NCBI RefSeq assembly: GCF_913776295.1
Contig: NZ_CAJYOJ010000071.1
Coordinates: 62,001-126,000 of the forward strand
Direction: 5' to 3'
Origin: an uncultured Pedobacter sp.
GTDB taxonomy: Bacteria > Bacteroidota > Bacteroidia > Sphingobacteriales > Sphingobacteriaceae
Length of the DNA stretch: 64,000 nucleotides
Below are positions 6,430 through 22,208 of the stretch, in pieces; the stretch's first letter is position 1; each line of letters begins with the position of its first letter. The notes beneath the pieces were generated by a model. It was not told the origin of the DNA and ran no database searches. It saw nothing but the letters and a program-made list of their open reading frames with translations. Both the position numbers and the translations under genes were made by a program.

Positions 6430-6553
6430 CAGGTGCCCCCTATCCCTAAACCCGATAGAAATGTAAAGCCCGGCTCCCGATTTTCATCGGGAGAGGACTT
6501 GAAATGAATAGCGGGGACTTCACATCGCCAAGAACTACTGCCTGCGCATTTCC
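6430..6553. repeat. Dispersed intergenic repeat A, copy 1
   Basis: About 120 bases align with 23987-24110. Shared words include 'aaacccgat', 'atgtaaagcccgg', 'ttgaaatga' and 'gaactactg', in the same order. The middle holds a short hairpin (CTCCCGATtttcATCGGGAG) that is replaced in the other copy. Confidence 0.7.
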
Positions 6554-21556: not shown

Positions 21557-21639
21557 GCGATTCAGTCTTGAAAATCTTTGCGCCTTCTGTTGGACTCCAC
21601 GATATGCAACCGGGGGTAAACTTATCGCCCCGCCTAAAC

Positions 21640-21667
21640 AAAAAAAAACCAACATTACAGTTGGCTT
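21640..21667 (-). terminator. Terminator after the tRNA-Asn remnant
   Basis: On the minus strand, a short stem CCAAC/GTTGG is followed by about nine T residues. It is placed, relative to the tRNA remnant, just like the terminators of the intact tRNA-Asn genes, but its stem differs. Confidence 0.6.
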
Positions 21668-21671
21668 TTGG

Positions 21672-21750
21672 CTCCTTCTGCTGGGCTCGAACCAGCGACC
21701 CTCTGATTAATCCCGCACGTGCGGGACTCTAACCAGCTGAGCCAAAATTC
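21672..21750 (-). pseudogene. Chimeric tRNA-Asn remnant with inserted GC palindrome
   Basis: The 3' half (T-arm, variable loop and 3' acceptor strand) equals the intact tRNA-Asn. The D-arm is nearly conserved ('GCTCAGCTGGTTAGAG'). The anticodon stem-loop is replaced by the palindrome TCCCGCACGTGCGGGA. The 5' acceptor strand is replaced by unrelated sequence (AGGAATT), so no acceptor stem can form. It directly follows the stop codon of the GIY-YIG gene on the same strand. It cannot be a working tRNA. Confidence 0.8.
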
Positions 21751-21753
21751 CTG

Positions 21754-22011
21754 TTAGTAATCTCCTTGAACAATTCGCTCAATTAATTTACGGCTTTTCT
21801 GCCTCTTGATAAAACGTTCCAGGCGGATGGCGTCAGGCTCTATGAATCCACACGAAAATACAGCTTCCAGGCTCCAAGGCCTATGCTTAGAGGTAAATGT
21901 TCCAAAAGATAAGCTATTGTGCTCTTCAAGTCGACGGACATAATCACTGGTGTATCCAACATAATAGAGATCCGAAGCTTTAGAATATAAGATATAAAGA
22001 TAATAGGTCAT
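21754..22011 (-). CDS. Stand-alone GIY-YIG nuclease family protein
   Basis: This 85-residue protein consists only of a GIY-YIG domain of the YhbQ/UPF0213 type. The two Tyr motifs are 'YYLYILYS' and 'LYYVGYTSDYVRRLEEHN', followed by 'FTSKHRPWSLEAVFSCG' and the conserved Glu-containing helix 'AIRLERFIKRQKSRKLI'. Family members are single-domain DNases of largely unknown purpose. The gene sits between an intact tRNA-Asn and a chimeric tRNA-Asn remnant that begins at its stop codon. That position suggests mobility or homing-like behaviour, but this is inference. Confidence 0.88.
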   Translation of the reverse strand: MTYYLYILYSKASDLYYVGYTSDYVRRLEEHNSLSFGTFTSKHRPWSLEAVFSCGFIEPDAIRLERFIKRQKSRKLIERIVQGDY

Positions 22012-22098
22012 AAATACAAAAAAACTGGAGTCCTTATTATCTGAGAGCTTTACCTGACAGTGATTATCATAAATCTTTAGTCCAAAATAGAATTAAAC

Positions 22099-22131
22099 AA
22101 AAAAAAGCGAATAACTTCCGTTATCCGCTTT
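22099..22131 (-). terminator. Terminator of tRNA-Asn copy 2
   Basis: The stem GCGGATAAC / GTTATTCGC (one G-T pair relative to copy 1) is followed by a T run on the minus strand. Confidence 0.8.
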
Positions 22132-22134
22132 AAG

Positions 22135-22208
22135 CTCCTTCTGCTGGGCTCGAACCAGCGACCCTCTGATTAACAGTCAGATGCTCTAACCGGCTGAGCT
22201 AAGAAGGA
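22135..22208 (-). tRNA. tRNA-Asn (anticodon GTT), second copy
   Basis: This 74-nt tRNA is identical in sequence to the one at 1868-1941 and folds into the same complete cloverleaf. It lies upstream of the GIY-YIG gene on the same strand and is divergent from the PfkB kinase gene. Confidence 0.97.

Follow-up and report, generated by a model that had tools for sequence, protein, structure and literature searches.

Organization of the tRNA-Asn locus

The window analyzed here, a stretch of 64 kb, carries on its minus strand an intact tRNA-Asn(GTT) gene at 22134-22208 (ARAGORN; Rfam tRNA, 68.9 bits), a terminator-like hairpin with a T run at 22099-22129, and an open reading frame of 85 aa at 21754-22011, which encodes a GIY-YIG endonuclease (Pfam GIY-YIG, E 7.7e-13). 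A tRNA-Asn remnant starts directly after the stop codon of this gene, as determined from the sequence and ARAGORN. The inner flank of the remnant (21727-21747, minus strand) is a segment of the tRNA D-arm (GGCTCAGCTGGTTAGAG) and is the same in relatives. At 21711-21726, where the 5' anticodon arm should be, lies the palindrome TCCCGCACGTGCGGGA, as also judged from relatives. It is followed on the minus strand by the right half of a split tRNA-Asn at 21671-21710, namely, nt 35-75, comprising the 3' anticodon arm, variable loop, T-arm, and 3' acceptor strand. A second terminator-like hairpin was found 3' of the remnant (21640-21669, minus strand), and comparison with empty relatives revealed a further decayed tRNA-Asn 3' end at 21580-21593 on the same strand. 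Beyond it, the sequence matches the stretch downstream of the second tRNA-Asn in the orthologous loci of the empty relatives L095, L099, and L101.

A sequence-only reading had already described an intact tRNA-Asn, a GIY-YIG gene, and a tRNA-Asn remnant with a palindrome, and this description was confirmed by sequence, ARAGORN, and Pfam. Its statement that the anticodon stem-loop was replaced by the palindrome held in part: CATCTGACTG, which comprises 2 nt, the 5' anticodon stem, and half of the loop, was swapped for TCCCGCACGTGCGGGA, but the 3' half of the anticodon arm (TTAATCAGA) was retained. Moreover, the remnant, which had been described as a tRNA-like tail of the gene, is the right half of a tRNA gene split by insertion, the left half of which is often preserved elsewhere. 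As the remnant is half of a split target, the apparent chimeric tRNA is a by-product of insertion and hairpin replacement. Judged by comparison with relatives, the tRNA-Asn gene at 22134-22208 would be the one that stays functional after insertion. Compared with P. suwonensis, the nuclease gene of the window has lost 1 nt, and therefore its stop codon falls just before the remnant.

Two further features of the window were recorded. The tRNA-Asn genes at 1867-1941 and 22134-22208, 20 kb apart, are identical. Each forms part of a cassette of approximately 175 bp that is duplicated at 95% identity, and their terminators are nearly the same. At 6475-6492 there is another hairpin (TCCCGATTTTCATCGGGA) with a stem of the same family as that of TCCCGCACGTGCGGGA, and no tRNA was detected near it by ARAGORN.

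Distribution and coupling to tRNA genes

The window protein gave 37 matches in 23 of the 151 genomes of its family, and the distribution was patchy. Nearly all of these matches lay behind an intact tRNA-Asn or tRNA-Val and ahead of a hairpin-bearing tRNA remnant. Across the class, a protein profile matched 201 of 395 genomes (115 of 196 genera), while a DNA pattern of the hairpin within a tRNA matched 77 of 395 genomes (60 of 196 genera). A narrower alignment was used for the contig scans, the broad alignment of 22 rows being too diverse. Among 91 relatives, which were class-wide sampled GIY-YIG loci with at least 450 nt upstream, an intact tRNA on the same strand was found within 450 nt upstream in 78 and within 100 nt in 66. 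The median distance between tRNA and gene was approximately 51 nt over all sets. By our estimate, which assumes a genome of 3.5 Mb with approximately 50 tRNA genes, a tRNA within 100 nt upstream is expected by chance at roughly 0.1%. The upstream tRNAs represented Asn, Val, Met, Ala, Asp, Leu, Arg, Pro, His, Phe, Ser, Thr, and Lys, among others.

The coupling was also evident downstream of the gene. The last 13 nt of the upstream tRNA were found again downstream in 77 of 112 loci, compared with 0 of 112 control flanks, and 72 of those 77 loci carry there a hairpin that is absent from the intact tRNA. Conversely, a related GIY-YIG gene was present within 900 nt for 22 of the 46 tRNA-like pattern matches with room upstream, compared with 0 of the 16 other matches; about half of the hairpin-bearing tRNA remnants are without a nuclease gene. 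In an independent named sample, the scanning of 85,462 species genomes yielded 79 loci, all from Bacteroidota, in which tRNA-Asn accounted for 60 of the 62 upstream tRNAs detected. The close relatives with names in this sample put the window near Pedobacter. The arrangement of tRNA, nuclease, and remnant is real and widespread, and the suggestion that the gene and its tRNA-like tail form a recurring unit was borne out in many Bacteroidota genomes.

Hairpins, remnants, and arrays

The palindrome recurs elsewhere, and its centres vary yet stay palindromic. After removal of redundancy, only a weak excess of variation was observed in these centres (0.0345 vs 0.020 per site), and hypervariable centres were not accepted as a feature. 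A chance palindrome was also rejected: the exact 16-mer occurs once in the genome of 5.09 Mb, and the hairpin (PAL) density fell from 6.3/kb immediately 3' of related GIY-YIG genes to 0.04/kb at distances above 700 bp, with overlapping sub-hits counted in both cases. The hairpin replaces all or part of the anticodon arm, lies in the T-loop, or does both. Its stems fall into the families TCCCG..CGGGA, CCCCG..CGGGG, TTCCG..CGGAA, and TCCGCC..GGCGGA, of which the last was found mainly in the Met clade of nucleases and the first in the Asn and Val clades.

In 30 of 154 distinct loci, the intact tRNA is also preceded by a left remnant. It consists of the promoter region, the 5' half of the tRNA, a hairpin, and a short stub, and in most cases is without T-loop or 3' end; its hairpin stem mostly matches that of the right-hand hairpin. 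Repetition was found at two scales: at a tRNA-Val locus (L292, genome G003), seven hairpin-bearing 5' tRNA halves with a period of 78 bp are followed by an intact tRNA at the contig end, and in genome G113 the whole unit forms an array of eight copies, mostly at 358 bp spacing.

The earlier suggestion that GIY-YIG frames run into translated tRNA and palindrome sequence proved accurate for the Asn clade, in which the nuclease frame is in one phase with the hairpin in 44 of 47 distinct loci. In most loci of this clade, the protein ends in ..LAQLVRVPxxRD*, translated from the tRNA D-arm and the hairpin. For isotypes other than Asn, no phase preference between nuclease frame and hairpin was found.

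Related structures occur on other contigs of the window genome. Near position 167316 of contig C78 (L166), a tRNA-Leu remnant with TCCCGACTTTAAGTCGGGA and no nuclease gene lies beside an intact tRNA-Leu and tRNA-Gly and is likely a relic of an element of the same kind. Contig C21 (L002/L180) carries two intact tRNA-Val genes and three remnants, in which the T-arm is replaced by TCCCGATTTGAA[CT]ATCGGGA, with a GIY-YIG gene among them. The order varies on contig C43 (L004), where a 5' part of tRNA-Arg with a hairpin-like insert is followed by a GIY-YIG gene, the start of which is an ATG inside the tRNA-Arg variable region, and an intact tRNA-Arg(CCT).

Filled and empty target sites

The orthologous tRNA-Asn locus was read in same-genus genomes (30 loci). 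Loci without the gene consisted of a tRNA, sometimes two, and a terminator, and no hairpin remnant was seen at these gene-less loci, save in one gapped contig (L104). With gene and tail present together in other genomes and most gene-less orthologous loci free of the remnant, the coupling proposed earlier stood. In the filled locus L081, the host flank and tRNA nt 1-25 align with the empty loci L078 and L077 at 94-97%. There follow 653 extra bp, which contain a hairpin, an intact tRNA, the nuclease, a hairpin, and a tRNA 3' half, to the right of which tRNA nt 62-75 and the host flank again align with L078 and L077 at 80-90%. This alignment shows that insertion occurred inside the tRNA gene and that the intact tRNA is part of the insert. 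One tRNA-Val locus of another genus was found side by side in empty (L287, L289, L290), simple (L288), full (L066, L293, L295), array (L292), and gene-less (L286) states. Thus, alleles with and without the nuclease at one target site were seen in two genera.

The origin of the intact tRNA was clearest at a tRNA-Met locus (L174). Both halves there, GGGCCTA on the left and TGCCTGG..CCAGGTGGGCCC on the right, are of the genus type, the same sequence, GGGCCTA...TGCCTGG..CCAGGTGGGCCC, being found at 10 of 10 same-genus tRNA-Met loci, whereas the intact tRNA-Met of L174 is of a different type (GGGCCCT...TGGTTGG..CCAACAGGGCCC). Halves of the host type around a foreign intact copy indicate that the element carries a replacement tRNA, for which L174 is the strongest evidence. 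A tRNA-Leu locus (L167) leads to the same conclusion, as the pairing partner of its left acceptor strand is found in the right half and not in the intact tRNA. At L122, L152, L157, and L196, the right half matches the tRNA of the element and not the left half, which requires later gene conversion or tandem duplication. On these comparisons, the intact upstream tRNA belongs to the element.

Ordinary tandem duplication and decay was considered as an alternative. According to this explanation, a GIY-YIG gene settled by chance behind tRNA genes, the tRNA repeats recombined, and the hairpins are random pseudogene lesions. Tandem tRNA genes are indeed frequent in empty relatives, and arrays with an exact period exist. 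However, the hairpin stems keep to fixed types in different genera and isotypes and stand far above background, the isotype follows the nuclease phylogeny across many host families, and L174 combines halves of the host type with a foreign intact copy. This explanation is considered very improbable and is already largely refuted by the phylogeny, the hairpin stems, and L174.

As for gene content, no gene other than GIY-YIG could be recognised in the clean 421-bp unit of L066, and no site-specific recombinase gene was found in the inserts of L081 and L066. Insertion in a tRNA gene, a carried tRNA of the same isotype (once clearly foreign), and a nuclease as the only gene are observed directly at these loci. 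A group I intron was rejected, as the Rfam scan of L081, L066, L174, and L045 returned tRNA and no intron.

Properties and phylogeny of the nuclease

The catalytic-type residues Y6, Y17, G19, R27, H31, and E65 were invariant or nearly so in alignments of the family. The AlphaFold model of the window nuclease had a pLDDT of 93.3, and its predicted fold was nearest to UPF0213 proteins and Slx1 nucleases. Profile matches to solved structures gave a similar result, the closest being UPF0213/YazA-type 1zg2 (E 7.8e-12) and SLX1 (E 8e-6). A GIY-YIG fold with its catalytic residues, as in free-standing GIY-YIG homing endonucleases, was therefore found. Moreover, dN/dS between young pairs of nuclease copies was 0.04-0.50, which indicates that the protein is under selection.

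When tRNA isotype was compared with the nuclease tree, 62 changes were counted, while shuffled data gave a mean of 99.8 and 0 of 200 shuffles were as low. Clades for Asn, Val, and Met were supported, and each mixes host families, the Asn clade spanning many. Since the clades track the isotype and mix host families, the nuclease moves between hosts while retaining its target. Such a clade-specific target across hosts, seen in the tree comparison and in the predominance of tRNA-Asn in the named sample, is a feature expected of free-standing GIY-YIG homing endonuclease genes.

At some loci (L047, L292), tandem tRNA-like repeats precede a terminator and the nuclease, an arrangement that resembles a type III toxin-antitoxin system, that is, a defence or addiction module in which tRNA-like RNA repeats neutralise the nuclease. 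However, the repeats are missing at most loci, the presence of the gene is patchy, empty sites exist, and the host tRNA is split. The domain is GIY-YIG, no ToxN-type domain being present. A search with defence models (PADLOC) gave no match of note (best E 0.042), on which a defence module was rejected, and the module reading is regarded as highly improbable, even more so than duplication and decay.

Relation to hairpin repeats and known systems

The association of a single small protein gene with short hairpins, including gene-less copies, is shared with RAYT transposases and REP sequences. Accordingly, a GIY-YIG counterpart of that system was weighed, in which the nuclease would recognise a hairpin of the TCCCG..CGGGA type, as a DNA hairpin or cruciform, and cut or move it; the hairpins would be the mobile unit, and tRNA genes would be favoured since their arms form hairpins. 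The different stem families of the Met and the Asn and Val clades, the varying hairpin position (anticodon loop, T-loop, or both), the gene-less copies in MITE-like arrays, and the nearest folds, which are those of Slx1-type nucleases of branched DNA, would all agree with this. So would a second, separate GIY-YIG clade, in which other repeats flank the gene: a 13-mer was common to both 380-bp flanks in 25 of 30 loci, compared with 1 of 30 far control flanks. On the other side, hairpins are rare away from the genes (0.04/kb), whereas REPs have hundreds of copies, the splitting and replacement of host tRNA genes is more than hairpin hopping, and no Y1/HUH transposase is present. Membership in RAYT/REP itself was rejected on gene content, as the L066 unit contains only GIY-YIG, in place of the HUH enzyme, and the hairpins are largely confined to tRNA remnants. 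A RAYT/REP-like process is unlikely, though less so than the two alternatives above.

The second clade, with proteins starting in MERGG.., is represented in the window genome by L003, L006, and L007 and elsewhere by the related loci L378-L406, and shares intergenic repeats on both sides (e.g., GTCATTGCGAGG..., CATTCCCG..CGGGAAT). This suggests a more general link between small GIY-YIG genes and hairpin repeats. Another GIY-YIG gene of the window genome (L001, C7:238-459) has one in-frame stop and is placed between TTCGACAAGCTCAACATGACA-type repeats, which are common intergenic repeats in many bacteria.

The closest known system is SegB of phages T4 and T6, a free-standing GIY-YIG homing endonuclease that cuts within tRNA genes at the motif RAWTSGAAC, is linked to tRNAs in phages, and leads to tandem amplification of the tRNA and its own gene (PMC13096335). 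By our reading, this motif is the complement of the T-loop. Donor-allele cutting by free-standing GIY-YIG enzymes has been described as inefficient (PMC13096335). Both systems place a free-standing GIY-YIG nuclease beside tRNA genes of many isotypes, and SegB is a precedent for a homing-type mechanism in its tRNA-gene cutting, tRNA linkage, tandem amplification, and inefficient donor cutting. Unlike the present element, SegB resides in phage genomes and is described near tRNA genes and not splitting them, and hairpins, a split target, and a replacement tRNA are absent from its description. No relative was found in phages (tblastn, 50,697 phage records), plasmids, or viral contigs, and membership in the SegB family was accordingly not assigned.

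UPF0213/YazA-type single-domain proteins and SLX1, the closest structures, are cellular proteins that are not known to be linked to tRNA gene insertion; SLX1 acts on branched DNA, which it cuts. Islands and prophages with tyrosine integrases likewise target tRNA genes and leave the host with an intact tRNA, but the present element has no integrase, measures approximately 0.4-0.65 kb with one nuclease gene, carries a whole replacement tRNA, and has both target halves provided with hairpins. Group I introns, some of which come with homing endonucleases, can also disrupt tRNA genes in the anticodon loop; here, tRNA function is kept by a second copy and not by splicing. No earlier description of an element of GIY-YIG, hairpin, and tRNA was found in the open-access, non-preprint literature searched. 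We rate as unusual the body plan, an element of approximately 0.4-0.65 kb that splits and replaces a tRNA gene; the underlying kind, a free-standing homing-type nuclease, is known.

Proposed mechanism

Taken as a whole, the data are probably best explained by a family of single-gene, tRNA-targeting mobile elements of Bacteroidota, roughly 0.4-0.65 kb long and working like a free-standing homing endonuclease, of which the window locus would be one copy in a simple form. The full form would comprise, on the left, the host tRNA 5' half, a hairpin, a short tRNA stub, a spacer, and the complete tRNA gene, and, on the right, the terminator, the GIY-YIG gene, a D-arm stub, a hairpin, and the host tRNA 3' half.

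A homing-type process is the most likely mechanism of the element. The nuclease would cut a tRNA gene in the anticodon-arm or T-loop region, and the break would be repaired from the element, with the tRNA stubs flanking the hairpins possibly providing homology. Repair would install hairpins in the target halves, which may thereby become uncuttable, together with the nuclease gene and a replacement tRNA that spares the host. Repeated rounds, or recombination between the many tRNA repeats, could produce tandem arrays. The simple form seen in the window would result if recombination removed the left half. The earlier proposal that the tRNA-derived sequence serves as end recognition or target was largely right, in that the remnant is half of the split target; its third option, a 3' processing signal, was not supported.

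Several observations weigh against the homing-type process. A weak point is that the tRNA carried by filled loci often has the same sequence as the empty target (as in L081 compared with L078), so that a nuclease cutting tRNA-Asn at the anticodon should cut its own element, unless donor cutting is weak or the recognition site includes flanks. The agreement of the right half with the tRNA of the element at L122, L152, L157, and L196 and the lack of hits in phages, plasmids, and viral contigs also count against it. Moreover, the gene-less hairpin remnants would have to be relics or non-autonomous copies.

Implications

More broadly, these loci may represent a minimal, hitherto undescribed class of mobile element with one nuclease of 80-100 aa, one cargo tRNA, and hairpin ends, which breaks a tRNA gene and supplies the replacement. 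The tRNA genes of Bacteroidota would then be exchanged repeatedly by a selfish element, and the class is possibly a branch of a wider principle by which hairpin repeats are spread through the action of small GIY-YIG nucleases. This broader view is held tentatively, with slightly less than even confidence. If the proposed explanation is right, many 'GIY-YIG nuclease family protein' genes of Bacteroidota would be mobile elements, each breaking up an essential tRNA gene and putting its own tRNA in place. This would be a new route by which tRNA genes are replaced and by which tandem tRNA arrays and tRNA pseudogenes arise, and phage SegB would have a counterpart in bacterial chromosomes. Compact nucleases that appear to be isotype-specific would also become available as a set, together with the empty and filled loci for testing them.
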